28,924 nt of DNA from the IMG/VR virus record IMGVR_UViG_3300005062_000070, positions 1-28,924 of that record; one strand, written 5' to 3'. Every line of letters starts with the position of its first letter. Position 1 is the stretch's first letter. Below, piece after piece: positions 1,604 to 27,577 of this stretch. This stretch comes from a virus. The position numbers and the translations under genes are program-made. The notes below the pieces were generated by a model, which did not search any database, was not told where the DNA came from, and was given only the letters and a program-made list of their open reading frames with translations.

Positions 1604-2344
1604 TTAACTACTTATTTTTAATGCTTTACGCGGGCCGATTAATTTTTTCAAAGATATTTCAAAGAACACCCTTCTCAGGGCTGCCGTTTTGCGGCCCGTT
1701 TTAACCTCCGGATCTCCTCCTCCAGGAGGGCATTTTCCTGCTCCAGGGCACTGATTTTTTTGAGAGCCTGCCGGAGCTGGTCCCGGAGGGATGCTATTAT
1801 CTGTTTCGGATTCTCCATCTTTTTTTTGCCTTTGTATTTTTCTATCCCATTTTTTATAGAATGATCGCTCTTTAGGGTTCATAAAATCCATTTCCCCGTA
1901 TTTTTCGTGATAACTTTCCCTTGCCTTCAATACTGTAAAATCATCCAATATCCTGTCTATATCGTACTCAGTTTCCGTTTCGATCTTCAATTCTTCCAGC
2001 GTGGCCACGCCGGTATAGACCTTATGAAGTTTTGAAATCAGATGCTCATAGCAACAGATCCAAGTGAGGTGAGCCTGCTGCATGGCATAAAAAATCCGTG
2101 TCTTGTCGCAGTGGGAATGGTAACACATGTCTTCAAAGGAAAGTGTCGTGCCCTTCCAGTCTACGGTTCTCCAAAACAGAAGGTTAAAGAACTCCCACTT
2201 CTCAAAGATTTCCTTTATGCTTAAAGGTACTATATTAACCTCTCCTTGCTTAAAACCGTTAAATTCTTTTGCAATGTTGATCACCTCCCGGTAATTCTTG
2301 GACCGGCTGGCTGGGAAACGGAGTATAAGGATAGGGTGGGGCAT
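1604..2344 (-). CDS. Unknown protein, probably frameshifted near its C-terminus
   Basis: Open frame of 246 codons with no recognised domain. The first roughly 175 residues look like a normal soluble protein (aromatic- and charge-rich, e.g. EKWEFFNLLFWRTVDW, then acidic helices). After the run of eight A residues (1820-1827) the frame turns into a Pro/Gly/Cys-rich stretch (PPGPAPAG, KCPPGGG) typical of wrong-frame translation, while the +1 frame encodes a clean coiled coil (separate entry at 1675-1818). I infer that the ancestral protein ended with that coiled coil at 1675 and that the annotated C-terminus is spurious, unless the shift is programmed. It is the last gene of the leftward lysogeny block, 3 bp after the TPR-like gene. 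Confidence 0.6.
   Translation of the reverse strand: MPHPILILRFPASRSKNYREVINIAKEFNGFKQGEVNIVPLSIKEIFEKWEFFNLLFWRTVDWKGTTLSFEDMCYHSHCDKTRIFYAMQQAHLTWICCYEHLISKLHKVYTGVATLEELKIETETEYDIDRILDDFTVLKARESYHEKYGEMDFMNPKERSFYKKWDRKIQRQKKDGESETDNSIPPGPAPAGSQKNQCPGAGKCPPGGGDPEVKTGRKTAALRRVFFEISLKKLIGPRKALKISS
1675..1818 (-). CDS. 47-residue coiled-coil frame, likely tail of the upstream gene
   Basis: Starts at an ATG one base past the A8 tract and runs 47 codons to a TGA at 1675-1677. It begins MENPKQII and contains an amphipathic heptad pattern (SALEQENALLEEEIRRLKR), a short leucine-zipper-like coiled coil. It overlaps the larger frame in the +1 register, so it is either the true C-terminus separated by an indel or slippage in the homopolymer, or a small independent protein. 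Composition is more protein-like than the overlapping frame. No function is claimed. Confidence 0.45.
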   Translation of the reverse strand: MENPKQIIASLRDQLRQALKKISALEQENALLEEEIRRLKRAAKRQP

Positions 2345-3075: not shown

Positions 3076-3498
3076 TCACGTTCCAGTTTGTTTGTTAGAG
3101 TATAGCCGGTTTTCAGTGATCAAATTTATCAGTCTTTCCGTATTTAGACCTTCCCTCTCCCTTGCCCTTGCATGTATTTCATTCGCATTAGCATTCTTTA
3201 GGGCAGCTTCTGCAAATTTATTGAGAGCTGCTATAAGTTCTTTCGTTTCGCTTCCCTCGTAATTAGTCTTTTGATCTCGACGACCAGACGCCATGTCTTC
3301 CTTCAGCATTTCGCCTTCTCCTGTTTTTAGCCAATTGATATTTAGCTCCGGATAAGTCTTTTCTATTTTATTTAGGCTTTTTAACGTAATGTTATCTCCA
3401 ACTTTATTGACAAAACCATTAGACAAACCACAGTTTTGTTCAAATTTCTTTTGACCTATGCCCAAATGAGCTAAAAATTTTATCAGCCGTTCTTTCAT
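3076..3498 (-). CDS. HTH repressor (cI-like, lysogeny control)
   Basis: 140 residues with an N-terminal helix-turn-helix of the XRE/cI type: LIKFLAHLGIGQKKFEQNCG followed by the recognition helix in GLSNGFVNKVGD, then NLNKIEKTYPELNINWLKTGEGEM, a signature seen in Bacteroidetes phage and element repressors. A C-terminal helix-rich part probably dimerises. No LexA-like peptidase Ser/Lys pair is evident, so RecA-stimulated self-cleavage is not suggested. It is divergent from the rightward early gene at 3560; the 61-bp gap holds a promoter and an 18-bp palindromic operator that recurs twice at 5.1 kb. The C-terminus may be truncated by a frameshift: the +1 frame continues with coiled-coil-like sequence to a stop at 3003. 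Confidence 0.88.
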   Translation of the reverse strand: MKERLIKFLAHLGIGQKKFEQNCGLSNGFVNKVGDNITLKSLNKIEKTYPELNINWLKTGEGEMLKEDMASGRRDQKTNYEGSETKELIAALNKFAEAALKNANANEIHARAREREGLNTERLINLITENRLYSNKQTGT

Positions 3499-3504
3499 TA
3501 ATTA

Positions 3505-3537
3505 TTTGCTTTTTACCGTTTCTATTCGGTATATTTG
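3505..3537 (+). promoter_or_regulatory. Rightward early promoter (PR-like)
   Basis: TTTG at 3505-3508 and TATATTTG at 3530-3537 are separated by 21 bp, matching the Bacteroidetes sigma-ABfr consensus TTTG...TAnnTTTG. Start codon of the first rightward gene is 23 bp downstream. The 18-bp palindromic operator (3514-3531) lies between and over the two boxes, so bound repressor would block the polymerase. Confidence 0.8.
3514..3531. promoter_or_regulatory. Operator copy 1 (TACCG-N8-CGGTA)
   Basis: Perfect inverted half-sites TACCG (3514-3518) and CGGTA (3527-3531) separated by TTTCTATT. It sits inside a 30-bp segment (3509-3538) that is repeated exactly at 5135-5164. Position between the repressor start and the early promoter -7 box is that expected of a repressor operator. 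Confidence 0.75.
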
Positions 3538-3559
3538 TATCAAACTTAAAACTATTGTC

Positions 3560-3739
3560 ATGTCAGAAGTAAATTTCCAACGAACACTTCTCTCGATAAA
3601 AGAGGGTGGAAAACCCGGTTTTACAGGCGAATCCCTCTCCCGGGATCAGGCTGCCCAGATAAAACAAGCCATCGAAGATCAAAAACAAAGATGGGATGAT
3701 TACTGGAAGTTCTGCGTTGAAACCCGCCTTGAATTGTAG
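3560..3739 (+). CDS. Small unknown protein, first rightward early gene
   Basis: 59 residues, starting MSEVNFQRTLLSIKEGG. An in-frame ATG further upstream (3506) would fall within the promoter, so the start at 3560 is preferred; it lies 23 bp after the -7 box. The sequence is hydrophilic with one helical segment (SRDQAAQIKQAIEDQKQRW) and Trp/Tyr-rich C-terminus. No homologous family is recognised. Its last 40 bp overlap, tail to tail, the leftward gene 3700-3951. The position, first after a repressor-controlled promoter, is that of Cro or an antirepressor in other phages, but no HTH is visible. Confidence 0.75.
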   Translation: MSEVNFQRTLLSIKEGGKPGFTGESLSRDQAAQIKQAIEDQKQRWDDYWKFCVETRLEL

Positions 3740-3951
3740 TCAGTAAGGTCACTAACAACGTGTACAAGCACATCAACAAGACCTCTGTCTCCCAAACGAA
3801 CCTCGTCTATATCATACACGAATGCAGGTCCGTTTTCCTGAGGAGTATGCACAATTTTGTTACCGACCTGGGGAACAGCAGCTAAATCCAGCGTCCACTC
3901 TGTCTTATAAATTTTCAAATCTTCGTTATAAACCAGTACTTTAATATTCAT
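3700..3951 (-). CDS. Small unknown leftward protein in switch region
   Basis: 83 residues, starts MNIKVLVYNED, with alternating hydrophobic beta-strand-like segments (KTEWTLDLAAVP, GNKIVHTP, AFVYDIDEVRLGDRG, VDVLVHVVSDL), suggesting a small beta-rich soluble protein. Its start is only 26 bp from the divergent start at 3978, and its 3' end overlaps the rightward gene 3560-3739 by 40 bp. No competing long frame covers its middle. Family not recognised. Confidence 0.7.
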   Translation of the reverse strand: MNIKVLVYNEDLKIYKTEWTLDLAAVPQVGNKIVHTPQENGPAFVYDIDEVRLGDRGLVDVLVHVVSDLTDYNSRRVSTQNFQ

Positions 3952-3977
3952 ATTATCAAATTTTAAAACTCAACATT

Positions 3978-4169
3978 ATGAAATCCACAGATCGAATAGA
4001 ACTTGAACTTAAAGTCCGGGAAGTTGCTATCCAAATCGCTTCTCAATATGGAGAAGAAGGGATCCATTTCTTTCATTCTGAATTTCTACCCTTAGCACAA
4101 GAATATACCGAAGGGTGTAATCAGAACGAGCGAGAGCGGACTACTCTTCCTTTTCAAGTAAAAGAGTGA
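3978..4169 (+). CDS. Small unknown rightward protein in switch region
   Basis: 63 residues, starts MKSTDRIELELKVREVAIQIA, predominantly helical and acidic. Leader is A/T rich (TTTTAAAACTCAACATT) as usual in this host group. It overlaps the leftward gene 4141-4341 by 29 bp at its 3' end. No family is recognised. It is probably co-transcribed from the 3.5-kb promoter even though leftward genes lie between. Confidence 0.65.
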   Translation: MKSTDRIELELKVREVAIQIASQYGEEGIHFFHSEFLPLAQEYTEGCNQNERERTTLPFQVKE

Positions 4170-4341
4170 TTGCCAAAGACGGTTTTGTAAAAGCAATGGT
4201 TTTTGATTTATTGGCGTCAAAGCTAGATGTCGAAACCTGTTTAATAATCCAGCCTTCTTTAGCTAATTCATCAACTACCGGGACCTTAGTAGCTCTTTCG
4301 AGTGAACTTATTACTGTTATAACTTTCTGTTTTGTAACCAT
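4141..4341 (-). CDS. Small unknown leftward protein in switch region
   Basis: 66 residues, starts MVTKQKVITVISSLERATKVPVVDELAKEGW: a helix followed by a possible beta hairpin and a hydrophobic C-terminal stretch (PSLAITLLLEKEE). A rightward frame (4166-4363) covers the same DNA, but its translation is a low-complexity Ser/Leu/Thr-rich shadow, so the leftward frame is preferred. The start is 33 bp from the divergent start at 4375. Function unknown. Confidence 0.65.
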   Translation of the reverse strand: MVTKQKVITVISSLERATKVPVVDELAKEGWIIKQVSTSSFDANKSKTIAFTKPSLAITLLLEKEE

Positions 4342-4374
4342 ATCGTTTTATTTTAAATCTTAAATCTCACAGTT

Positions 4375-4755
4375 ATGTCAGAAATTTTACATCAATCCAT
4401 TTTGAGTGACACCGAACTTCGGTTGAAATGCCTAGAATTTGTCGTCCAAAAAAGTAACAGTTATAGTTACAACTGGCCAAACTATCAGCTTGTCGAAACC
4501 GAAATCATATTCAAGTACATCAAAGAAGGCAGACTGCCAGATCATGCGGTCGATTTTGCCAACGGTAAAACAATGATCGACTATTCCAATGGGGAAATCG
4601 TGGCCGATAGGCTCTTAGAGAGAGCTTTTAAGCTGCTCATGCAGGAACGAAAACAGTGTAATCAACCCGCCCAAAGCAGCGATAAGAATACCGACAATTT
4701 GAAACAGCCTAAATCTCGTTTCTCTAATCTCCTTGGCCGATTCAGAAGGAAATAG
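4375..4755 (+). CDS. Unknown rightward protein in switch region
   Basis: 126 residues, starts MSEILHQSILSDTELRLKCLEF. The body (residues 1-85) looks folded, with aromatic-rich NSYSYNWPNYQLVETEIIFKYIKEG; the C-terminus is basic and disordered (LKQPKSRFSNLLGRFRRK). The last 141 bp overlap the leftward gene 4615-5067. No Pfam-type motif recognised. Homologous small proteins are plausible in other Bacteroidetes prophages, but I cannot confirm that here. Confidence 0.7.
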   Translation: MSEILHQSILSDTELRLKCLEFVVQKSNSYSYNWPNYQLVETEIIFKYIKEGRLPDHAVDFANGKTMIDYSNGEIVADRLLERAFKLLMQERKQCNQPAQSSDKNTDNLKQPKSRFSNLLGRFRRK

Positions 4756-5067
4756 CCTGCTTTTTATGGCTAATTCCCCTTTTTCTGTTGTCTCCCAATA
4801 CCTGTATGAATCATCTTTATTGATGTATTCAACATAGCCCTTTTCGTTCTGCTCCATCTCTCCATTTACAAGATAAAGCAGTTTCCTCTCTTTTAATAGT
4901 TCAATCAATCCTTCTTCAAACGTTTGATTGTCCGGATAGATCCGGTTCAATTTATCGTATTGCCTGTTCTCTCCCGGCGACCGGCCTGCCTTGTACTTTA
5001 GCAAAACGAGATTCAGCCGGTCATTTCTTTTATCGACATTCTTAGCTTCCTCTAAGGCAATACCCAT
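4615..5067 (-). CDS. C-terminally membrane-anchored protein, leftward switch gene
   Basis: 150 residues. Residues 1-105 are soluble and charged with a winged-helix-like strand pattern (FEEGLIELLKERKLLYLVNGEMEQNEKGYVEYI, then YWETTEKGELAIKS, which resembles the end of a winged helix). One transmembrane segment lies near the C-terminus (FQIVGILIAALGGLITLFSFL, about 121-141), leaving a short tail. This topology would put the soluble part in the cytoplasm. The start is 22 bp from a possible leftward promoter next to operators at 5108-5157. It overlaps 4375-4755 by 141 bp. Function unknown; a membrane-associated regulator or superinfection-exclusion protein is conceivable but unproven. Confidence 0.7.
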   Translation of the reverse strand: MGIALEEAKNVDKRNDRLNLVLLKYKAGRSPGENRQYDKLNRIYPDNQTFEEGLIELLKERKLLYLVNGEMEQNEKGYVEYINKDDSYRYWETTEKGELAIKSRLFPSESAKEIRETRFRLFQIVGILIAALGGLITLFSFLHEQLKSSL

Positions 5068-5088
5068 ATTCCTGTCTTTCAGTTAGTT

Positions 5089-5125
5089 GAAAAATAATTT
5101 TAGTTTTTACCGAAAAAAAACGGTA
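5089..5125 (-). promoter_or_regulatory. Possible leftward promoter overlapping operator copy 2
   Basis: On the minus strand TATTTTTC (5089-5096) is one base off the TAnnTTTG -7 box; the -33 region falls in the T-tract inside operator copy 2. It would start transcription about 15 bp before the start codon at 5067 and drive the leftward switch genes, possibly through to the repressor. Weak match, tentative. Confidence 0.3.
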
Positions 5126-5157
5126 TTAAATTTACTTTTTACCGTTTCTATTCGGTA
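5108..5157. promoter_or_regulatory. Operator copies 2 and 3 (TACCG-N8-CGGTA twice)
   Basis: Copy 2 is 5108-5125 with spacer A8; copy 3 is 5140-5157 with spacer TTTCTATT, identical to copy 1 at 3514-3531. Centre-to-centre distance is 32 bp, about three helical turns, allowing cooperative binding on one DNA face. They lie between divergent genes 4615-5067 and 5249-5494. Confidence 0.72.
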
Positions 5158-5163
5158 TATTTG
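5131..5163 (+). promoter_or_regulatory. Second rightward early promoter
   Basis: TTTA at 5131-5134 and TATATTTG at 5156-5163 reproduce the promoter at 3505-3537 (the 30 bp 5135-5164 are identical to 3509-3538), with the -33 box changed from TTTG to TTTA. It should drive the HTH gene at 5249 and the long early operon. Operator copy 3 overlaps it. Confidence 0.68.
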
Positions 5164-5248
5164 TCTCAACGTTTCAAGATTATTTCACAAAAGTATTTGA
5201 TAATAACCAAACAGTAAAGGTACTAAAGTTTCTAAAAATTAAAACTAT

Positions 5249-5494
5249 ATGATTGACAAAGTTTCTATCCGAAAATTAAACGCCTGCCTCAGGCGTGGTG
5301 ATCAGTCTGAAATTTCCAGAAGATCAGGCATTTCTAAAGCAACAGTAAACCGCTTCCTGAATTGCCAGGATTATGCGTGTAGCGATGAAAGCGGAGAGTT
5401 GATTATCGAGACCACAATGGCCTTGATAAAAGACCGCAATAAGCGCGCTGCTGCTGCTGCTAAGAAAATCGAAGCAATCACAAAACTTGTATGA
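5249..5494 (+). CDS. Small HTH DNA-binding protein (Cro-like candidate)
   Basis: 81 residues. A helix-turn-helix is visible in GDQSEISRRSGISKATVNRFLNC (about 18-40): the first helix, the Gly turn and the recognition helix KATVNRFLN. The C-terminus is an Ala/Lys-rich helix (NKRAAAAAKKIEAITKLV). Length and position, first gene after a repressor-operator promoter, fit a Cro-type early regulator; residues after the HTH (Cys-Ser-Asp-Glu) have no known signature. A perfect 7-bp hairpin with a 3-nt loop (ACGCCTG 5280-5286, CAGGCGT 5290-5296) lies at codons 11-16. The next gene starts 2 bp after its stop. Confidence 0.8.
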   Translation: MIDKVSIRKLNACLRRGDQSEISRRSGISKATVNRFLNCQDYACSDESGELIIETTMALIKDRNKRAAAAAKKIEAITKLV

Positions 5495-6509: not shown

Positions 6510-6648
6510 TGAGGCTTTATCCTGTGATGACCCAGTCTCTCTCATGCGACTTAAAAAGTTTGCAAAATCAGGCAAGGCAAAGAGAATTATCAAAAATCAG
6601 GCGATCACCCTGTTCCGATCCGAGGAATACATCGCCAGTCTACTATAA
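6466..6648 (+). CDS. Small basic unknown protein
   Basis: 60 residues, Lys/Arg rich (MKRKKLKKADLKLVNEALSC ... KSGKAKRIIKNQ), helical, no known domain. It overlaps the previous gene by 44 bp in another frame and ends 13 bp before the Rad50-like ATPase, suggesting translational coupling. It could be a small nucleic-acid-binding partner of the recombination genes, but nothing proves this. Confidence 0.6.
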   Translation: MKRKKLKKADLKLVNEALSCDDPVSLMRLKKFAKSGKAKRIIKNQAITLFRSEEYIASLL

Positions 6649-6661
6649 ATAAAAACAAATC

Positions 6662-8605
6662 ATGAAAAACGTAAAAATCATTAGCATGGTTATTCGAAAC
6701 TTCAAAGGGATCAAGAACTTTGAGATCAATTTCAATGACCATACCCGGATCTACGGAGACAACGCTACAGGAAAGACCACCTTGTTTGATGCCTTTACAT
6801 GGCTTCTCTTCGGCAAGGATTCAACGGATCGGAAAGACTTCTCAATCAAAACCCTTGACAGCCGGAATAATGTTATCCATAAGCTTGAACATGAGGTCGG
6901 GGGGCTTTTTGAAGTTGACGGAGAAGAAATAGCTCTACGCCGAGTATTCCGTGAAAGATGGGTTACTCGCCGAGGCTCAGATGTACCTGAACTGCAGGGC
7001 AATGAAACCCTATTCTTCTGGAACGATGTTCCGCTTCAGGCTAAAGAATTTCAGGAAAAAGTTGATCAGATTATTTGTGAGCAGACCTTCAAGATGATCA
7101 CCTCTCCATCTTATTTCAATTCGCTGAAATGGCAGGAACGGCGAAATATCCTTACTACAATCGCCGGGGATGTTTCTGACAGTGATATTGCCAGTACCCG
7201 TAAGGATTTTCAGGACCTGATGGAACTGATGGGTAAGAAATCGTTTGAAGAGTTCAAAAAGGAACTGGCTGCTAAGCGGAAGAAATTGAAAGACGAGCTA
7301 GCCCTGATCCCTGCCCGCGTGGATGAAGTTACCCGAAGTACTCCGGAATCGAAAGACTGGAAGCTTATTCAAGACGAGATCGATATTTTGAATAATAAGA
7401 TCGAAGCGATCGACACACAATTGCAGGACTCTTCTAAGGTGTATGAAGATTTTTACAAAAAGAAGCAGGACCGGCTCCGTAGGATTAATGACCTTAAAAC
7501 TAAGATTTCTGACTTCGAGTTCAAGGGCCGGCAGGCATTCAATAACCAATTGAATGAGAAGCAGGCTACTATCGGTGAAGCAAAAAACAAACTGGTCGCT
7601 ATTAAGAAGCAAAAAGCAAACGCTGAGAGCGAACTGGAAGTTTTGAATACCAGTATCGGAATCTTCCGAAAAGAACAGGCTGATTTGAGAGAACAATGGG
7701 CAAAAGTCAATGCAGAGCAGTTCCCAGGCGTACATGCGGATGATTGTAAATGTTATGCATGCGGGCAGGATTTGCCGTCCGATAAGGTGCAGGAAAAGCA
7801 GTCTGAAGCTTTGGCAAAGTTCAACGCGAATAAAGACCGTCGCCTGGCGGAAATTGTCAATGAAGGATCCGGGATCAGTCCGAAGATCGAAAAGTTGGAA
7901 AAACAGATTGCGGAGATCAATAATACCGACTTTGATTCTCTGATTGCTCAGCAAGAGACACAGATCGTAGCTTGTGAATCAAAGAATATTGTCAGCGTTC
8001 AGGCTCTCATGGCTGGGAATACCGAATACGAACAGGCGGTCAAGGATCTGGAAGAGCTTGATAATATCAAAGAGGAACCCGCTCCGGTTGCTGATAACTC
8101 AGAATTGAAACTGAAGAAAACCGGCCTGATTGCAAAGGTTGACGAGTTGAAAAAGCATCTGGCAGCCAAAGATCAGATCACATTAGCCGATAACCGCAAA
8201 AAAGAGCTGTTAAAGCAGGAAAAGGAATTCGCTTCCCATTTGGCTGAACTTGAAAAGACTGAGTTCACTATCCAGGAATTCACCCGTGCAAAGGTTGACA
8301 TGCTTGAGGAAAAGATCAACGGCATGTTCACGGGCGTGAAGTTCCGCTTGTTTGATACCCAGCTTAATGGCGGACTGGTTGAATGTTGTGACACTTTAAT
8401 AGAAGGTGTGCCCTGGAGTGATGCCAATAATGCCGCTAAGATCAATGCCGGTATTGCAATTATCAACGTGCTTTCTGACTTCTACGGGCAGTCTGCCCCG
8501 ATATGGATCGATAATTCTGAATCAATCACTTCAATCCACGAAACCCCGGCTCAGCGGATTGAACTCTATGTATCCGAGCCGGACAAACAATTAAGAATCG
8601 CTTAA
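6662..8605 (+). CDS. Rad50/SbcC-like SMC-family ATPase
   Basis: 647 residues. Walker A is GDNATGKTT (32-40) after a Rad50-like start (IRNFKGIKNFEINF). Long coiled coils flank a CxxC element (CKCYACGQ, about residue 360), the position and pattern of a Rad50 zinc hook. The C-terminus carries a Walker B-like IWIDNSESI in which the usual D-E is D-N. A length of about 650 is short for Rad50/SbcC (850-1050), as in phage versions. It precedes Bet by 11 bp and is in one operon with an MBL-fold hydrolase, so a role in end processing or recombination is likely. The missing Glu after the Walker B Asp may slow hydrolysis. Confidence 0.88.
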   Translation: MKNVKIISMVIRNFKGIKNFEINFNDHTRIYGDNATGKTTLFDAFTWLLFGKDSTDRKDFSIKTLDSRNNVIHKLEHEVGGLFEVDGEEIALRRVFRERWVTRRGSDVPELQGNETLFFWNDVPLQAKEFQEKVDQIICEQTFKMITSPSYFNSLKWQERRNILTTIAGDVSDSDIASTRKDFQDLMELMGKKSFEEFKKELAAKRKKLKDELALIPARVDEVTRSTPESKDWKLIQDEIDILNNKIEAIDTQLQDSSKVYEDFYKKKQDRLRRINDLKTKISDFEFKGRQAFNNQLNEKQATIGEAKNKLVAIKKQKANAESELEVLNTSIGIFRKEQADLREQWAKVNAEQFPGVHADDCKCYACGQDLPSDKVQEKQSEALAKFNANKDRRLAEIVNEGSGISPKIEKLEKQIAEINNTDFDSLIAQQETQIVACESKNIVSVQALMAGNTEYEQAVKDLEELDNIKEEPAPVADNSELKLKKTGLIAKVDELKKHLAAKDQITLADNRKKELLKQEKEFASHLAELEKTEFTIQEFTRAKVDMLEEKINGMFTGVKFRLFDTQLNGGLVECCDTLIEGVPWSDANNAAKINAGIAIINVLSDFYGQSAPIWIDNSESITSIHETPAQRIELYVSEPDKQLRIA

Positions 8606-19770: not shown

Positions 19771-19834
19771 ATTGCTCATCTGAAATACAAAAACCGTCGA
19801 AAATTATATACAAAAATCATGTTAAATTATATAA

Positions 19835-19866
19835 CGAAAAACCCCCGGCCAACACGTGAACGGGGG
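19835..19866 (-). terminator. Terminator of the leftward lysis/late operon
   Basis: On the minus strand CCCCCG (19861-19866) pairs with CGGGGG (19842-19847) and a T tract follows (19836-19841). It lies 28 bp past the stop of the spanin-like gene and faces the rightward terminator about 70 bp away. Confidence 0.78.
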
Positions 19867-19893
19867 AAAATCTAACTAACCTAAATCACGAAA

Positions 19894-20322
19894 CTAAACC
19901 AAACCCTTTATAAATGAAATTATTTTACTTAAAATTCCCTTCTTGCTCAAATACTTATACAAAACATAAAGCAAGGCCGCAATGATGATTAACCTAAAAC
20001 TCATGATCTGCCAGCTCTGCCATTTTGTAAGCTTATTTACTTCCTTTGTTTCGACAACCGGATACGGCACCTCCTTTTCAGTCTCTATTTTAACCGTGTC
20101 CGTTTTCAGGACGTCCCGGTTTTTATAGATGTATTTGTACTTTTCAATAAACACCGTATCCCCTTTGTCCCGGATATACACACTGTCCCTTTGAATGAGC
20201 GTGTCAACCTTCAATACTTCCCGGTCCTTGTATTCCGTCCAGGTGCTGTTTACCGGAACATACTTTGTCGTCTTGCACCCTGCAAGGACAATAATCAGTA
20301 ATATGATGAAAATATTTTTCAT
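19894..20322 (-). CDS. u-spanin-like lipoprotein
   Basis: 142 residues. N-terminal lipoprotein signal with lipobox LAGC (Cys16), a periplasmic charged central region with repeats of the type EVLKVDTLIQRDSVY / DVLKTDTVKIE, and a transmembrane segment near the C-terminus (FRLIIIAALLYVLYKYL, about 109-125) followed by a short basic tail. An outer-membrane lipid at one end and an inner-membrane anchor at the other is the defining topology of unimolecular spanins, which fuse the two membranes at the last lysis step. Downstream of the endolysin in the same operon, which agrees. No homology search was possible. Confidence 0.78.
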   Translation of the reverse strand: MKNIFIILLIIVLAGCKTTKYVPVNSTWTEYKDREVLKVDTLIQRDSVYIRDKGDTVFIEKYKYIYKNRDVLKTDTVKIETEKEVPYPVVETKEVNKLTKWQSWQIMSFRLIIIAALLYVLYKYLSKKGILSKIISFIKGLV

Positions 20323-20323
20323 G

Positions 20324-20527
20324 TTAGTTGAATTTTTTTGTCTCGCTTAACTCTTCTTCGTAGTAATAAAGAGATGATATACCTGCCCCAAACGATACCA
20401 TGTACATGATGCTTCGTTCACGGCGACAGTATTTCCAATCAATCACAATACCAGGGTCAGATTCCGGGGTCGTAAAATAAACGGTCTGGCCGATGTCGAA
20501 TCGTGGTGTGATGGTTATTGGTTTCAT
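20324..20527 (-). CDS. Small unknown protein in lysis operon
   Basis: 67 residues, starts MKPITITPRFDIGQTVYFTTPESDPGIVIDW; strand-rich like small SH3-type barrels (IGQTVYF, PGIVIDWKYCRR, YMVSFG, SSLYYYEEEL). Overlaps the endolysin stop by 4 bp and ends just before the spanin start, so it is inside the lysis operon. Its role is unknown. Confidence 0.7.
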   Translation of the reverse strand: MKPITITPRFDIGQTVYFTTPESDPGIVIDWKYCRRERSIMYMVSFGAGISSLYYYEEELSETKKFN

Positions 20528-21042
20528 TGTATGTAGTCAGCGATTATATAGATTGATCGTTTGTTTCGGATCTTCTTATATACTCCATCACCTTCCCGGC
20601 CTCCGGATCCGTCTGTATTTCCCTCGATCGTTTCGTAGCTAAACCGGCTTTCCCCAGTGATCAGCCCAACATGAGCTACCCGGCGTTTGGATTCAAAGTA
20701 TAGTCCGAAGACCTGGCCGGGTTTCGCTTTAAATTCCTGAAGCGTTGGCTTGTTTTTTTTGTAGACAACATTGTATCTGAACCAGTCCGGACACCAGGCG
20801 CTTTGAGGATTATCAATTCCGGCCTGATCGTGGCACCAAGTGACGAATGCAGCACACCAGGCATAACCTTTTCCTAGCTTCACAGATCGTAAATATTGTT
20901 CAACCTCCGGTCCGTCGTTATTTCCTGTCTGCTCCCGGACCCCGACCTGAGACTCTGCCACCTGAACCAGCCGGCCTCTTAACCCGGCTGCCGGTAAATC
21001 AAGGTACAGGAAAACCAATAATATTAAAGCCAGTATCTTCAT
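20524..21042 (-). CDS. Exported CHAP/NlpC-type endolysin
   Basis: 172 residues from ATG 21042 (MKILALILLVFLYLDLPAAG), chosen because it begins a signal peptide; a longer frame from 21117 adds an odd Cys/Gly-rich leader inside the holin gene. Papain-like cysteine-peptidase motifs: C63 (GYAWCAAFVTWC), H124 (RVAHVGLI) and N142 (IEGNTDG), the Cys-His-Asn set of phage CHAP peptidoglycan hydrolases. It should cut the cell-wall peptide or amide bond. The Sec signal would let it reach the periplasm without a holin pore, with the holin setting timing. Overlaps the upstream gene by 4 bp. Confidence 0.88.
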   Translation of the reverse strand: MKILALILLVFLYLDLPAAGLRGRLVQVAESQVGVREQTGNNDGPEVEQYLRSVKLGKGYAWCAAFVTWCHDQAGIDNPQSAWCPDWFRYNVVYKKNKPTLQEFKAKPGQVFGLYFESKRRVAHVGLITGESRFSYETIEGNTDGSGGREGDGVYKKIRNKRSIYIIADYIQ

Positions 21043-21392
21043 AGCGAAAAGGCTAATAGTCCGGATAACACAGCGAAAATGGCAACCCAAAACAGGCTTA
21101 CTTTGACCTTTTCCCATTCAGTAATTGACTGCACTCCGCCTTCTGTTTCATCGTCCAGTTTATCCCATGACTGTGGGCGAGTCTTTTTAATCCACAAGAA
21201 TGCTGCGCCGAGGATGATGCAGGATCCAAGGACACCGAAAGGTATTTTCTGAAAGTATCCTACTGGATAAGTTTCTGTACCAGCAAACCGGCTAAGAATC
21301 CAGAATGCGAACCACACCAGTGCGGCCATAATGGCGATGTAAAACATCACCTGCTTTTTACTCCATTTAAAAAATCTTTTTATTGCTTTCAT
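21039..21392 (-). CDS. Holin candidate, three membrane segments
   Basis: 117 residues. Hydrophobic segments: about 15-35 (VMFYIAIMAALVWFAFWIL), 51-67 (FGVLGSCIILGAAFLWI) and 98-116 (VSLFWVAIFAVLSGLLAF), with charged loops and a basic N-terminus (MKAIKRFFKWSKK). Size and topology fit a class I holin, and it directly precedes the endolysin (4-bp overlap). Holins are recognised by context, so this is a strong candidate but not proven. Confidence 0.7.
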   Translation of the reverse strand: MKAIKRFFKWSKKQVMFYIAIMAALVWFAFWILSRFAGTETYPVGYFQKIPFGVLGSCIILGAAFLWIKKTRPQSWDKLDDETEGGVQSITEWEKVKVSLFWVAIFAVLSGLLAFSL

Positions 21393-21395
21393 ATA

Positions 21396-21668
21396 TTAAT
21401 TATTTAATACTTTGTCTTGCATTTTTTCAATCTTCCTGTTCATCTCAATCAGCTGATCTTTAACCTGCTGAATTGTGATTTCATACACGGTTCGATCTGC
21501 CTTATCTGCTTTTAGATCCTGAATCTCTTTTGAATGTTGTGAGAGCTCATTTTGTGTGTTGAAATAAAATGGGATTGTCGCGATGACTACAATCACAAGC
21601 AGACTTCCACCGGCAGTCCATAAAGTCTTTTGTAATTTTTTCAGAAAATCATTCTCCTGTTCGCTCAT
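21396..21668 (-). CDS. Membrane-anchored coiled-coil protein, XhlA-like
   Basis: 90 residues: a short acidic N-terminus, one transmembrane segment (WTAGGSLLVIVVIATIPFYF, about 17-36) and a long coiled coil (ELSQHSKEIQDLKADKADRTVYEITIQQVKDQLIEMNRKIEKMQDKV). The layout mirrors hemolysin XhlA-type phage proteins, which assist holins in host lysis. First gene of the lysis operon, 3 bp before the holin candidate; a hairpin terminator sits just upstream. Confidence 0.72.
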   Translation of the reverse strand: MSEQENDFLKKLQKTLWTAGGSLLVIVVIATIPFYFNTQNELSQHSKEIQDLKADKADRTVYEITIQQVKDQLIEMNRKIEKMQDKVLNN

Positions 21669-21682
21669 ATTGTTCTTTTTTT

Positions 21683-21715
21683 AAAAAACCGGCGCAATCA
21701 CGGAGACTGCACCGG
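21683..21715 (-). terminator. Leftward terminator ahead of the lysis cassette
   Basis: On the minus strand CCGGTGCA (21708-21715) pairs with TGCGCCGG (21689-21696), with one T/C mismatch, followed by T6 (21683-21688). It lies 15 bp upstream of the start at 21668, so leftward transcripts from the tail genes would stop before the lysis genes unless antiterminated. Confidence 0.68.
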
Positions 21716-21797
21716 AAAATCAAATCAATAATAAATCACAGTCTCAGATTAAAATATAAATTGATTGAAAAATTATCTTTTTGGAGCACTTTTATTC

Positions 21798-21828
21798 TTT
21801 TTTATGTATTTTACGTTCTGTACATTTG
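21798..21828 (+). promoter_or_regulatory. Promoter of the lone lipoprotein gene
   Basis: TACATTTG at 21821-21828 is a full match to the Bacteroidetes -7 box TAnnTTTG; the -33 region (21798-21803) is T-rich with no perfect TTTG. The start codon is 17 bp downstream. No TACCG-N8-CGGTA operator is present, so it need not be repressed in lysogens. Confidence 0.6.
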
Positions 21829-21845
21829 TTAGAAAAATCACAGCT

Positions 21846-22727
21846 ATGAAAAAACTAATCTTACTTTTATTGATCGCTGTATCTTTTTCCTGTTCTGATA
21901 GTTCGTCAGTTACAGATGAACTGACGATTAACGGGAAACTGCTGACAAAGGCAGAGATGGATATTTACGCACAGACCGGGTGTATCGCGGAAGACCCCGA
22001 ACTTATCGAGGACATGACCCTTTTTACTGATACAACAACAAATTACCGGTACCTCTACGGATCGAAAAAAGACACAATCAATAACATTACAAGCTTTTGG
22101 GTATCAAAATTTGAGGCAAACGGAGACTGTATTTATGATCTTGTGAAGGAAAATACCGTCAATACCTATGCCGGAGGCCTTGCGGTTCTGTCTGACGGGA
22201 ACTTAGTAGTTTCTGATGTTTATATGAGGGTTGATTATCCGGAGCTGATCTATGAAACGATCCCTACTGTAATCTCGCAGGCCGGGTCGATAACAGGGAC
22301 TACTGACGTTCCGGACGGGTATATTTATACGGATGTTAGTGTGTTCGATGACTTTTTCTTTTGTACAATAAATAAACAGGAATTGCAGAATAATCCGTTC
22401 GTAATAGAATATGCCGCTCAAATACGTAATAATGGAACTCTTTTAAAAAAAGACGGTTATTTAAATTTTCCAAATGATTATGCTATCTGGAATGATGAAG
22501 ATTATTATGTCGAAATAACAGATAAATTAATAAAAAAATGGAGCGTAAATCCCATTCCTGGCAAAATTTGGGATCATGCTATATCCCTTCCATCATTCTA
22601 TCAATGCGATATAAACGCTTCATTTAAAGGTGATGAAGTTACTGTGAATTATAGCCTATTATTCGAAGACGGAGACAAGAAAACGTATACTTACAGGATA
22701 TCATATATTTCAGGATTTTTGCTGTAA
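21846..22727 (+). CDS. Lipoprotein, candidate lysogenic-conversion (moron) gene
   Basis: 293 residues from ATG 21846 (MKKLILLLLIAVSFSC), chosen because it starts a lipoprotein signal with lipobox SFSC (Cys16); an upstream in-frame ATG at 21765 only adds a second hydrophobic leader. The mature part is strand rich (TNYRYLYGSKKDTINNITSFWVSKFEANGDCIYD; GGLAVLSDGNLVVSDVYM), resembling beta-propeller or cell-surface lipoproteins of Bacteroidetes, but no family is recognised. It is on the opposite strand to the tail and lysis genes around it, has its own promoter, and its 3' end overlaps the tail accessory gene by 18 bp. This isolated arrangement is typical of genes expressed from the prophage to alter the host surface, an inference here. 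Confidence 0.8.
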   Translation: MKKLILLLLIAVSFSCSDSSSVTDELTINGKLLTKAEMDIYAQTGCIAEDPELIEDMTLFTDTTTNYRYLYGSKKDTINNITSFWVSKFEANGDCIYDLVKENTVNTYAGGLAVLSDGNLVVSDVYMRVDYPELIYETIPTVISQAGSITGTTDVPDGYIYTDVSVFDDFFFCTINKQELQNNPFVIEYAAQIRNNGTLLKKDGYLNFPNDYAIWNDEDYYVEITDKLIKKWSVNPIPGKIWDHAISLPSFYQCDINASFKGDEVTVNYSLLFEDGDKKTYTYRISYISGFLL

Positions 22728-23177
22728 TAAAGATTCAAGTCTATTGATTTTGTCTCTAACTTCCTGCCTTTCATTGTGCAGGGATTCAATTTCATAAGGC
22801 GTAGTTTCACCTATTAAACTCGCTTCATAGCTTTTAATTATTTTGTAATCAGAGTCAGCCAACTGCTTTTTAAGGATATCTATATTTCTTTCAATTTTTG
22901 AAAAATCAAGTGTTTTTTCATACCTATAGCCGATCTTGTAGCCAAAATCATAAGGGAATGCCCGAACCCGGTAATTTTCTTCGCACTGTTGTATTTTAGA
23001 TTCATCTATTTCGTCAATTGGTTTCCACCCCTTTGCTGTTAGCTCCTTGATTTGCTGTTCAACGGTAGTAGTCCGTTCATGTATTTTACCATCATCACCC
23101 GCATAGGGTTCAATTTTTTCCCTAATTAATACCGACATTGGGCGGCCATCTTCATCAATATATCCGTATTCTATCAT
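22710..23177 (-). CDS. Small tail-fibre accessory protein, unknown
   Basis: 155 residues, starts MIEYGYIDEDGRPMSVLIREKIEPYAGDDGK, followed by EQQIKELTAKGWKPIDEIDESKI and a C-terminal coiled-coil region (FSKIERNIDILKKQLADSDYKI; HNERQEVRDKINRLESLLQQK). Located 16 bp after the fibre gene on the same strand, where tail-fibre chaperones or capping proteins often sit. No membrane segment, no enzyme motif. Function is a guess from position. Confidence 0.72.
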   Translation of the reverse strand: MIEYGYIDEDGRPMSVLIREKIEPYAGDDGKIHERTTTVEQQIKELTAKGWKPIDEIDESKIQQCEENYRVRAFPYDFGYKIGYRYEKTLDFSKIERNIDILKKQLADSDYKIIKSYEASLIGETTPYEIESLHNERQEVRDKINRLESLLQQKS

Positions 23178-23193
23178 AATTCATATTTTTATT

Positions 23194-26100
23194 TTATCTT
23201 TCCCATCTACTTGCCAACCAATAAGAACCATCATATTCAAGCATCCAAACCCAGTTTAGATTTTCCATCTCGAATGAATCAACATTCCCAGTTCCTTTTT
23301 TAATCCATGATGCAAAATCATTAACATATAGACGACCACCGTCCCCGGATCTTCTGAAATAATATCTTTTACCCGGAACGCGACCATTATTTGCAGTTGT
23401 CGGAAGATACACATTGCAAGTACTAGTTCCGATGTAATTGATATACTCATAATCGAAACCGCCAAGAGATTCGAGGTTTAATGATGTAGCTGTAGTTCTT
23501 AAAATAGGTCCGCACATTTGGCCATTTACCCGGCCATAAAAAGTTATACTTTCACCAGCACGGGCGTGATGATTTTGATTGCCATAGCCAGTAAAGACAT
23601 TTCCTTCTCCGTAAGTGTTTGCGAGAGCGTAAATCCCTTCTCCACCAGATCCGTATGTAGTGATTGACAAAGCCCGAGAGCCGTCTGCACGCATTGCCAT
23701 TAATGTGGAACTTGCGTCATTTATTCGAAGGAATTTTGTTCCTGAATAATACACCTCCAAAATCGCATCTGACAACTTCATCGTCGGATTACCAAATGAA
23801 TCACCATCCTTGTACAACTCTATAGCATTGATAGGGGTTATAGAGTCTCCGTTAACGTCTCTCGCCCTGTTTATTTCTATCCTTTTCCCTGATGGAGCTG
23901 TGTACAAGTACTTAACCCCCAAATTCTCAATGTACGCCAACTCAGCAAACAACAGCTGCGTAGCTACACTCTCAAAGCTTGCTCCAAAGCTGTTCCATTT
24001 TGCTGTATTTGTGGGAACTACTCCGCTGAACGTTCCTGCATCCGTTCTCGCTACATAATAAGAGCTACTATACTTAACGACGTCAACCCTTTGTGAGTTT
24101 CCATAATAGGTTTTCCCGCTATCGTAATTTCCCTGGAAGGCAATAGCCGGTCCAGATGGTCCCTGTGCACCTGTGTTCCCTTGCGGTCCTTGCGCGCCTG
24201 TTGCGCCAGTGGCCCCAGTGGCCCCAGTGGCACCTTGAGGTCCCTGTTCGCCCTTAATCCGGACAGCGGCCGACCAGTTTTCAAGTAATGTAGATCCGTC
24301 ATATGTTTTCTTTGCTTTCGTGAACCACAAGTATTCCAACGCGCCGGTGCTGGGTGGAGTTGTTGACCAGCCGGATGGATTAAGGTCTGTAACCGTCAGT
24401 GCCGGAGCAGAGGAGGTTGAACCGTTCTTTGCATACCGGTATTCAATGAAGGGACCATTTGAGCCATTGCTTCCATCCTCCCCGTCAGAGCCGTCAAAAC
24501 TATACTTAGACCATAATGCAGGAGTAGAAAAAACACTCCATACACCATTGGCTTTAGTACGTTTGCACACCCACTCGTATTGATAGGTTGATGTCACTCC
24601 GCTCATATCATCAGTCCAACCCGAGGGTACATAATCATCAGTCTGTGATGTTCCTGGTGTGGAAGGAACAGAAGATGTTGTCGTTCGCTTGAAGATAAAC
24701 TCAACGCTTTTCCCGTCTACTCCATCTTGTCCATCTTCGCCATCAAAGCTATATTTTGCCCAAACCTTCGGAGTTGAGAAGGCTCCCCAGGTTCCTGTTG
24801 TTCCTGTACGTTTGCTGACAAATTCATATTGCATTGAAGAGGTAACGCCCTGTTGATTGTCCGTCCAGCCAGAGGGAATATAGTCGTCAGTGCCGGATAC
24901 GCTTGTGGGAGTTGTGGGAGTTACACCTGTATTGTTTCGCGTGAAGATGAATTCCACACCAGATCCATCCTCCCCATCATCGCCATTAGTTCCGCCAGCT
25001 GCCTTAACTGTCCAGTATGACCCCTCTACGGGCGTATGACCGGAACCGGGGGTCTCGTTGATGAATTGCCATGTGCTGCCTGAATAAGTTACTTCATCAC
25101 CTTTGTAATAGATATAGGAGGCATTATAAGCCCCCCGGTAAACACCAATAGGTGATTCATCACCGGATTGGGACTGCACCAACGAGCCTTTTATCTTAAC
25201 GTTTTGAAGGGTTGTTGTATCTTCTTCTGAAACGTTGACATCAATTCCTCCAAACTGAATTTGTTCAGAGTCCAGATCAATATAGTTCTCTCCGGAGATG
25301 GATTGAACACGGCCTGTTGTAATTTCCCGGCCATTTATCCAAGTCTTGCCGTAGCCTGTCTTGAAAGTCCGGATCCCTTTGCTGTCAACAGGCAATAAAG
25401 TCCCTACTGGGAAATAGAACGATGTTTCTTGATTGGAGGAAATAATTTCAGTTGTCAGCTCCCATACAGATGTTGCCTGAGCTTTGGAACACTTTGCATA
25501 TAAATAGTAAGCACTCGCAGCTGTAAGCCCTGAAAATGATCCTTCAGCAATAGCCCAATCGAATGATTCTGATCCTGCGATTGTAATGCTTATTTCCAGA
25601 TGCGAAAGCGTGCATGCCGGAGCGTAGAAAGAATTGGCGTCGCCGCCGTTATTTTCCACGAAAGTTGGTGTAGGGGTATGTAATATAAAGTTCCCGGCAC
25701 TGGTCCCGCTCTCGATCAGCAGGGCTGCAATACGCTTAGCTGTGATCAGATCCTGATCGAATTCGTTATCTGCATCAAGAAGATAGTCCCGGAGTGTTTT
25801 CATCGAAGCGGTATTTCTTCTGGCTGACTCGATTGATTGCCGTTTCGTCTTGACAATATTCTGTTTGTTTTTCGCCGTGTCCAGGATCACCCGCTCCGAC
25901 GTGGTGTAAAGGACCGTGTCGGAAATGGTCGCTTTGATCTTGTTAGGGTTGACAAGCGGGTATTCGATCTCCATCACCCGGATAAGTTCATCAATCCCAA
26001 GAGCAGCGTCATAGATAGTCACCAGATCGCCTACCTTCAGGTTGATACTTTGAGCCTTGACATACTTCTGATCGATCTCCAGCTCATAAGTTACCTGCGG

Positions 26101-27240
26101 TACACTGTTTTGATCAAGATATTCCTGTGTGGCTGCTTGTAATTCCGTTTCTGCCGCGTCAATATAACTTTGCGGCATAGAGATGTTGATCAAAGTATAA
26201 GTGTCTCCTGCAACCGGTAAATTAAGGCTGTTGGGAAGGACATACCCGTCGCTTTCCTCAAAAGCATTGAAATAGATTCTTTTGTTTTCATGATCGTATT
26301 TCCATATCTCAAACTGATACCCGGAAAGGTCACCTGACTTGAACACGATCGTGGCCGTCTGGCCAGCAACCAGGTAATCATTAATGTCGAAGTCCAGGCC
26401 TGTATCTTCGACGTATGAAGCGTTCGGGTTGAAATTGCCGTCGCCGTCGTACTCGATGTGTACACCTGAAATAGTCCCGGTCCGCTTTGGATAAATATTC
26501 TCGTCATTAAATACTCCTTCAATGATCCCGTACAGGGCAGTGTTGGCTTCCAGATAGCGGCTCTCGAACACCAGTTTCTTTGCCCTATTCCGGTAGTCAG
26601 ATCCGATGTTTGTCGATCCTCCGAAGCCGTAAACTCGGGTGACAATGTTTTGATCGCTCACCTGTACCCGGGTGAGTTTATATAGACCATTTCCACGGCC
26701 ATATTCGAACCTGTTATTTGTGTCTGTTCCGATGCTTGCCTTCAGGCTTATCGCCTTGCTGTCGATATCGAACTCAAGCTTAAATTCATCAGCCACCTGC
26801 GTTAGTGCCTGACGGCAGGTCGTGTTTGAGAAAGATATTGTTATTTCATCAGCGTCATCAACCGTTCCAATAGTCCAGCCCGAATCAATTTGATTTGCCT
26901 GGTTAACGATCAATGTAATGAAATCAACCGGGGCACCGGTATAATCAAATTCAGAAAGGCCATCATAGAGGAATAATTTGTTGTAGAGGCTATATTCCGG
27001 CCCTTCAAATTCGATCGCATATTTGTAAGTTTTGTTGTTGACCTTTTGTATTTCCGGGAGCCGGTTGATTGAATAATTTACCTCATTCCAGACAACATGG
27101 TCGCCAAGCTGTAAGCCGAGCGGAGCCGGAGCATAGAACTCCGCATTGACTTTGTTGTCAGCCATGAATTTTTTTGAAAAGACCGTGCTTTCGTCAATTT
27201 CAACCGATGCGATTATTGATGTGTTTCGAAGAATGTCCAT
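23194..27240 (-). CDS. Tail hub (Tal-like) fused to a collagen-like receptor-binding fibre
   Basis: 1348 residues. The N-terminal ~390 residues resemble the baseplate hub/tail-associated protein of siphophages (RNTSIIASVEIDE, LQLGDHVVWNEVNYSINRLPEIQK ... LTRVQVSDQNIVTRVYGFGG). Next come a long central part and an aromatic carbohydrate-binding-like unit (GVYRGAYNASYIYYKGDEVTYSGSTW, about 715). Then three related ~83-residue modules (VEFIFxR ... DDYxPSGWTDxxxGVTS ... KYSFDG) separated by short D-G-x linkers, a Gly-x-y collagen-like stretch (GEQGPQGATGATGATGATG), and a C-terminal fold ending GGRLYVNDFASW ... LASRWER. It should bind receptor and initiate infection. 9 bp separate it from the upstream small protein gene. 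Confidence 0.92.
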   Translation of the reverse strand: MDILRNTSIIASVEIDESTVFSKKFMADNKVNAEFYAPAPLGLQLGDHVVWNEVNYSINRLPEIQKVNNKTYKYAIEFEGPEYSLYNKLFLYDGLSEFDYTGAPVDFITLIVNQANQIDSGWTIGTVDDADEITISFSNTTCRQALTQVADEFKLEFDIDSKAISLKASIGTDTNNRFEYGRGNGLYKLTRVQVSDQNIVTRVYGFGGSTNIGSDYRNRAKKLVFESRYLEANTALYGIIEGVFNDENIYPKRTGTISGVHIEYDGDGNFNPNASYVEDTGLDFDINDYLVAGQTATIVFKSGDLSGYQFEIWKYDHENKRIYFNAFEESDGYVLPNSLNLPVAGDTYTLINISMPQSYIDAAETELQAATQEYLDQNSVPQVTYELEIDQKYVKAQSINLKVGDLVTIYDAALGIDELIRVMEIEYPLVNPNKIKATISDTVLYTTSERVILDTAKNKQNIVKTKRQSIESARRNTASMKTLRDYLLDADNEFDQDLITAKRIAALLIESGTSAGNFILHTPTPTFVENNGGDANSFYAPACTLSHLEISITIAGSESFDWAIAEGSFSGLTAASAYYLYAKCSKAQATSVWELTTEIISSNQETSFYFPVGTLLPVDSKGIRTFKTGYGKTWINGREITTGRVQSISGENYIDLDSEQIQFGGIDVNVSEEDTTTLQNVKIKGSLVQSQSGDESPIGVYRGAYNASYIYYKGDEVTYSGSTWQFINETPGSGHTPVEGSYWTVKAAGGTNGDDGEDGSGVEFIFTRNNTGVTPTTPTSVSGTDDYIPSGWTDNQQGVTSSMQYEFVSKRTGTTGTWGAFSTPKVWAKYSFDGEDGQDGVDGKSVEFIFKRTTTSSVPSTPGTSQTDDYVPSGWTDDMSGVTSTYQYEWVCKRTKANGVWSVFSTPALWSKYSFDGSDGEDGSNGSNGPFIEYRYAKNGSTSSAPALTVTDLNPSGWSTTPPSTGALEYLWFTKAKKTYDGSTLLENWSAAVRIKGEQGPQGATGATGATGATGAQGPQGNTGAQGPSGPAIAFQGNYDSGKTYYGNSQRVDVVKYSSSYYVARTDAGTFSGVVPTNTAKWNSFGASFESVATQLLFAELAYIENLGVKYLYTAPSGKRIEINRARDVNGDSITPINAIELYKDGDSFGNPTMKLSDAILEVYYSGTKFLRINDASSTLMAMRADGSRALSITTYGSGGEGIYALANTYGEGNVFTGYGNQNHHARAGESITFYGRVNGQMCGPILRTTATSLNLESLGGFDYEYINYIGTSTCNVYLPTTANNGRVPGKRYYFRRSGDGGRLYVNDFASWIKKGTGNVDSFEMENLNWVWMLEYDGSYWLASRWER
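24206..24232. repeat. Tandem 9-bp repeat in the collagen-like region
   Basis: Unit CCAGTGGCC occurs at 24206-24214, 24215-24223 and with one change at 24224-24232, encoding Gly-Ala-Thr triplets in the fibre. Such repeats change copy number by slippage and can lengthen or shorten the fibre stalk in frame. Confidence 0.75.
24250..24965. repeat. Three ~83-residue modules in the fibre gene
   Basis: In transcription order the modules run about 24965-24716, 24716-24455 and 24455-24250. The first two share DDY(I/V)PSGWTD, GVTS, QYE(F/W)V.KRT, W..FSTP..W.KYSFDG; the third is more divergent. They differ in loop residues, suggesting duplication followed by divergence of receptor-contact surfaces. Confidence 0.7.
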
Positions 27241-27249
27241 GCTGATTAA

Positions 27250-27576
27250 TTAATTTATCCCTTCATTCCTGCACTTCTGTTTTATCCCCTCTGCGAACTC
27301 GTTGAAAGCGATAAAGTCAGGATCAGAAGGGTTTGTTATTCCTTTTCTTAGTGCCGATTCAGACTCACCGTCAGGGAACTGTTCTTTCAATACCTGATCA
27401 ATGATCCTGTTGTAGGTAGCCGGGTTTTTAACCTTATATTGTTCCTCTGCAAAATGCAATATTTCTGTTTGACCTTCATTTTCAATTTCTTCACTGTACC
27501 TGTCAAAGTTGACTAGGGAATATTCCCCGAGATTCTCGATAAAAACATTACTGGTTATTTGAACTCTCTTTTCCAT
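27250..27576 (-). CDS. Small acidic unknown protein next to reverse transcriptase
   Basis: 108 residues from ATG 27576 (MEKRVQITSNVFIENLGEYSLVNFDRY), one base after the reverse-transcriptase stop (TGACATGG), so it is translationally coupled to it; a start at 27603 would overlap that gene. The protein is acidic, with helices (EEIENEGQTEILHFAEEQYKV; DFIAFNEFAEGIKQKC) and no known motif. It is followed 9 bp later by the tail hub/fibre gene. It is not an obvious Avd (DGR accessory) protein, which is basic and four-helical. It could be a tail chaperone; unknown. Confidence 0.75.
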   Translation of the reverse strand: MEKRVQITSNVFIENLGEYSLVNFDRYSEEIENEGQTEILHFAEEQYKVKNPATYNRIIDQVLKEQFPDGESESALRKGITNPSDPDFIAFNEFAEGIKQKCRNEGIN

Positions 27577-27577
27577 G

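Follow-up and report, generated by a model that had tools for sequence, protein, structure and literature searches.

Genes and operators of the locus

The window, the 28,924-base stretch of DNA analysed here, is a complete IMG/VR virus entry from a Bacteroidales-type phage; the record itself is possibly a fragment. It contains an integrase gene at one record end, a CI-like repressor gene, a cro-like HTH gene and early genes. Between the repressor and cro lie six small ORFs flanked by two control regions. Genes on the repressor strand are named L and those on the cro strand R. Promoters are given as matches to the Bacteroidetes consensus, with TTTG near -33 and TAnnTTTG at -7 (PMC7366714), and relatives are cited by locus number (L002 and higher).

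3076..3498, minus strand: CI-like repressor (PHROG transcriptional regulator match, 5e-5)
3499..3559: left control region, with one operator (3514-3531) and the rightward promoter PR1
3505-3508 and 3530-3537, rightward: PR1, TTTG, N21 and TATATTTG (consensus match)
3541..3548, minus strand: candidate local repressor promoter, TAAGTTTG with -33 TTTA and N21 (consensus match)
3560..3739, plus strand: R1, 59 aa (ORF call; homologue in L002; neutral codon usage)
3700..3951, minus strand: L1, 83 aa, overlapping the R1 tail by 40 bp (coding codon usage)
3978..4169, plus strand: R2, 63 aa (homologues in L002 and L008)
4141..4341, minus strand: L2, 66 aa, overlapping the R2 tail by 29 bp (homologues in L002, L009 and L008)
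4375..4755, plus strand: R3, 126 aa (ORF call; codon usage near neutral)
4615..5067, minus strand: L3, 150 aa, overlapping the R3 tail by 141 bp (coding codon usage)
5068..5248: right control region, with two operators (5108-5125 and 5140-5157), PR2 and PL
5077..5098, minus strand: 22-nt leader element, identical in L002 at about 4418-4439 (plus strand)
5131-5134 and 5156-5163, rightward: PR2, TTTA, N21 and TATATTTG (consensus match)
5188-5195 and 5215-5218, minus strand (leftward): PL, TACTTTTG, N19 and TTTA (consensus match)
5249..5494, plus strand: cro-like HTH gene, first of the early lytic unit behind PR2 (weak Pfam HTH matches)

The strict strand alternation of the six ORFs, described in an earlier note on this DNA, was confirmed by an ORF check in which all coordinates were exact. 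The tail-to-tail overlaps (40, 29 and 141 bp) and the head-to-head gaps (26 and 33 bp) were also correct on recount. The repeated operators that the note reported are genuine. The 40-bp elements at 3504-3543 and 5130-5169 are 95% identical. Of the palindrome TACCG-N8-CGGTA, the 28.9-kb record has three copies against 0.03 expected, all of them in this region (3514-3531, 5108-5125 and 5140-5157).

L1, R2, L2 and L3 clearly have the codon usage of coding sequence; that of R1 is neutral and that of R3 near neutral. R1 is homologous to L002 3436-3828 (28% identity, E 4e-8 in a single comparison), and that homologue is likewise a member of a convergent overlapping pair. R2 shares 59% identity with its homologue in L002 and 41% with that in L008, each of which is paired with an L2 homologue. 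L2 shares 62%, 44% and 34% identity with its homologues in L002, L009 and L008, respectively. The structure prediction for L2 was of moderate quality, and its best matches in the PDB (Alba- and ACT-like folds) were not significant. The C-terminal part of L3 bears a weak likeness to the L proteins of L009 and L045; its predicted structure is poor, with a hydrophobic C-terminal helix within a low-confidence model. No homologue of L1 was found in protein scans, including those of viral contigs, and none of R3 in the searches made; a relationship between R3 and the coil family of the relatives was rejected on comparison. Viral contigs scanned with single proteins (L1, L3, R3 and the product of a LuxR-like gene) gave no match, nor did a DNA-level search in phages. 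PADLOC gave no match for the L proteins, and neither Pfam nor PADLOC matched a HEPN domain among those tested.

It is improbable that R1 and/or R3 are not genes and that annotation has thereby made the strand alternation look stricter than it is. The codon usage of both ORFs and the lack of an R3 homologue speak for this reading, but R1 has its homologue in L002, and both members of the pairs are conserved and under purifying selection in relatives.

Two further regions of the record were noted. Near the integrase, two same-strand ORFs overlap in different frames (1604-2344 and 1675-1818, minus strand), the shorter with coding-like codon usage. A reverse transcriptase gene (27578-28924, minus strand; Pfam RVT_1 and PADLOC RT/DRT-like matches) lies at the record end, and no template/variable direct repeat of at least 30 bp was found in 19800-28924.

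Conservation and joint inheritance of the convergent pairs

Relatives were collected by a scan of Bacteroidales MAGs with the repressor N-terminus (L007, L008, L009 and L010), from viral contigs (L002) and by further genome searches (L045, L022, L062 and L063). The N-terminal 66 residues of the repressor are 68-79% identical to those of L002, L007, L008 and L009. The same gene order, which the earlier note had proposed to seek in related prophages, was found as convergent, tail-overlapping pairs next to the repressor in at least these nine relatives. On the upstream side of the repressor, one pair is present in L002, L007, L045, L010, L022, L062 and L063, two in L008 and L009, and three in the window. 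The L member is truncated in L007, and one extra L gene accompanies the pair of L010. The tail overlaps in relatives range from 12 to 83 bp, and in the loci with two pairs the divergent genes are separated by 33 and 35 bp. Most more distant relatives are without such a pair, as judged from ORF lists and an automatic screen. The screen also flagged ORF pairs in L017, L021, L027, L039, L043 and L060; those of L027, L043 and L060 were rejected on inspection of ORFs or annotation, and those of L017 and L021 were left aside on the strength of the ORF lists. The match to L005, within a phage structural region, was due to chance.

Genes on both strands of the pairs are under purifying selection, with dN/dS values of about 0.15-0.43. 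The comparison of the window with L002 gave 0.43 for R2 and 0.15 for L2. For the closely related loci L022 and L062, the values outside the overlap are 0.16 and 0.33 for the two convergent genes, so that purifying selection acts on both. The layout of the block is not due to chance, because overlapping convergent pairs recur by the repressor, some of them homologous, with both strands under purifying selection. The earlier note would have given up its reading had the minus-strand frames not been conserved; instead, the minus-strand genes are kept in relatives and selected. Purifying selection in the R2/L2 and L022/L062 pairs argues that genes on both strands make proteins in such a layout, R3 of the window being an unproven case.

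The pairs tend to be inherited as units. R2 and L2 occur together in the window, L002 and L008, and the coil and wHTH-membrane families are confined to the identical three loci among 48 genomes. The site of R2/L2 differs, lying between the repressor and cro in the window and between the repressor and the integrase in L002. The cultivated Bacteroides phage BS-TP3 carries a convergent pair with a 21-bp overlap. The L member of this pair has a relative in L002, and for the R member no relationship could be demonstrated on comparison; partners are therefore often, but not always, the same. In L063, the repressor is unrelated, yet the L protein is related to that of L022; the R proteins of these two loci showed no relationship on comparison.

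Several further observations concern single relatives or small groups of them. The R2/L2 insert of L002, roughly 400 bp long, lies between the two copies of a perfect 64-bp direct repeat (6550-6613 and 7006-7069) that takes in the start of the next gene and hints at how pairs move. In L007, L008, L009 and L045, a leader close to TTTAATTCAAATT precedes the start codon of R genes and is repeated within L008 and L009; this shared leader is a possible recombination joint. L010 encodes a hybrid repressor (1196-1744) whose first 27 residues are conserved and followed by unrelated sequence. A membrane protein weakly related to the L gene product of L022 is encoded in L064 (1462-2079) directly behind an ATPase gene, apparently outside any phage switch.

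Promoter positions and the apparently displaced repressor

The plan of the right control region is common to the window and L002, L007, L008, L009, L045, L022 and L062, and a PR1-like site occupies the same position in the relatives compared. In loci with both sides read, the left side has one operator and the right side two. The operator copies differ between phages but are alike within each phage, and within the window, within L007 and within L009 they are nearly identical. The 22-nt leader element precedes unrelated L genes in the window and L002, and related motifs are present in L007, L008, L009 and L045. Rfam gave no match.

Promoter sites, defined by an exact -7 element (TAnnTTTG) and at least three of four matches at -33, were counted in eight loci (the window, L002, L007, L008, L009, L045, L010 and L022). 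Nineteen of the 21 sites fall in the 1,705 bp of control DNA and two in the 6,670 bp of block DNA, figures that overstate independence because the loci are related. The control-region sites comprise PR1 by the repressor, PR2 before cro and the leftward PL between PR2 and cro, in addition to the local repressor site of the window. PL of L022 is located at the start of cro. Some sites are weak: L008 is without a clear PR2, L063 is without a clear PL and PL of L002 is near-consensus only. Judged by consensus sites only, PL and PR2 face each other at a distance of 32 bp in the window, 29-34 bp in most relatives and 62 bp in L022, and lytic and lysogenic promoters thus face near operators, as in a 186/P2-type switch.

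Neither head-to-head gap of the window contains a consensus promoter. The earlier note considered these gaps too close for two promoters, but the closeness is only suggestive, because promoters could lie within neighbouring genes, a placement against which the scan speaks for the consensus type only. Short separate transcripts starting inside genes may also exist, since consensus scans miss other promoter types. Each convergent pair could be an independent, moron-like cassette with its own weak, non-consensus promoters, and the alternation could reflect stacking, with no long opposing operons. The different sites of R2/L2 in the window and L002, where it forms an insert with the 64-bp repeat, and the other pair in BS-TP3 agree with this account. 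It is nevertheless unlikely in view of the gaps that are without consensus promoters, the clustering of consensus sites at both ends and the repressors of relatives that are without a promoter of their own.

The position of the repressor promoter separates loci with the block from those without it. TAnnTTTG occurs within 160 bp upstream of the repressor in 21 of 33 loci without the block and in one of eight block loci (p 0.016, a statistic limited by the relatedness of the loci, by weak sites in some of them and by a grouping that was made after the layouts had been seen), the sole exception being the window. In ordinary relatives, the spacing between the -7 elements of the repressor promoter and PR has modes of 24-34 and 55-62 bp, matching PL-PR2; in many of them, L018, L024 and L049 for example, the repressor and cro promoters seem to face with -7 elements about 30 bp apart. 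Because of this shared spacing and because block repressors are mostly without a promoter, the right control region looks ancestral. Sequence comparison suggests that the block was inserted so as to part the repressor from its promoter, with another copy of operator and promoter at the end next to the repressor.

The earlier note also proposed that leftward transcription could continue into the repressor. The relatives, whose repressors have no consensus promoter of their own, support this proposal; for the window, read-through from PL is less secure because of the candidate local promoter at 3541-3548. The R unit might thus start at PR1 and the L unit at PL while the repressor is transcribed from a local promoter independently of PL, the overlaps being mainly genome compaction. 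Phage genes are often compact, and this commonness, together with TAAGTTTG and its TTTA at N21, speaks for such an arrangement. It is still doubtful, as such a site is absent from seven of the eight block loci tested (all seven relatives) and a search of the DNA from L1 to the repressor gave no terminator-like site for leftward transcription.

Proposed switch and comparison with known systems

The anatomy and the comparison support the earlier proposal of two interdigitated opposing units, one predicted to run rightward from 3.5 kb and the other leftward from about 5.19 kb. The 3.5-5.25 kb region would be a lysogeny switch whose ancestral repressor/cro control region now lies about 1.6 kb from the repressor, with PL corresponding to the usual repressor promoter and three convergent pairs filling the space between. 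PR1 would drive the three plus-strand genes as a single rightward lytic unit. PL would drive the three minus-strand genes as a single leftward lysogenic unit that can continue into the repressor. Since the pairs sit between the repressor and its usual promoter, each of the two programmes, lysis and lysogeny, seems to be transcribed across the genes of the other, and the two units, being antisense to each other, would hinder each other. The repressor would shut PR1 and PR2 and tip the balance. We assign this model as a whole, including the separation of the repressor from PL, a probability of about 0.62.

The earlier note attributed the mutual hindrance to RNA interference. Polymerase collision is a better first guess, because RNase III was not the main route when a comparable arrangement was tested in phage 80alpha (PMC11087260). 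Hindrance would thus act mainly through collision and promoter occlusion, the -7 elements of PR2 and PL being about 30 bp apart. We guess that the L genes probably have accessory, exclusion-type functions expressed in the lysogen and that the function of each R gene is probably tied to that of its L partner, as the pairs are inherited together. More tentatively, the switch may be modular: the repressor would be last on a long leftward transcript running antisense to the first lytic operon in its entirety, and plug-in pairs of a lysogen function and its lytic counterpart would be swapped as units in the interval that separates the repressor from its promoter.

If the transcripts fit the anatomy, a group of Bacteroidales phages would decide on lysogeny through two opposing operons that interleave completely and whose gene pairs can be swapped. 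Noncontiguous operons would then include arrays as well as single antisense genes, the overlap and cohesion of the pairs would have a physical reason, and the block would be a simple hunting ground for undescribed exclusion or defence pairs.

In noncontiguous operons, or excludons, an operon is interrupted by an opposite-strand gene with mutual antisense overlap (PMC7154746). The order and strand of the block genes, with opposite-strand genes between same-strand genes, fit this definition and are kept in relatives; we infer from promoter placement that each set forms one operon. Unlike noncontiguous operons generally, two would interleave here gene by gene. In coliphage 186 and P2, the lytic and lysogenic promoters face, and pR of 186 interferes transcriptionally with pL (PMC7708051). 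The facing promoters are shared with the window, whereas the regulators differ. Neither 186 nor P2 is known to have interleaved convergent protein genes arrayed between its opposing promoters.

In tha/ith of the Staphylococcus aureus prophage 80alpha, the lysogenic transcript from the repressor promoter crosses an opposite-strand lytic-phase gene, the two expression states are mutually exclusive and the organisation is conserved (PMC11087260). A lysogenic transcript through opposite-strand lytic genes is predicted here, also in a conserved organisation. However, the antisense gene of 80alpha stands alone and has a promoter of its own, and the repressor there comes first in its operon, whereas the window group has one to three pairs, no consensus promoter within the block, a second operator-promoter copy and, as predicted, the repressor in last place. 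The HEPN protein of Tha/Ith, expressed in the lysogen, has no counterpart among the L proteins tested. In Pseudomonas phage Fc02, genes upstream of the repressor and apparently on its transcript overlap an opposite-strand early lytic gene, and exclusion activity was reported (PMC9936078). Repressor-strand genes upstream of the repressor likewise overlap lytic genes here, but Fc02 has one overlapping site, different proteins and no array of pairs.

The earlier note knew of no description of this layout. None was found for Bacteroidales phages in the open literature, most subscription journals lying outside the scope, whereas 80alpha (PMC11087260) and Fc02 (PMC9936078) anticipate parts of it. 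Noncontiguous operons, tha/ith and Fc02 are thus precedents in kind, and the window group differs from them in the array of pairs, the block interior without consensus promoters, the second control region and the displaced repressor.
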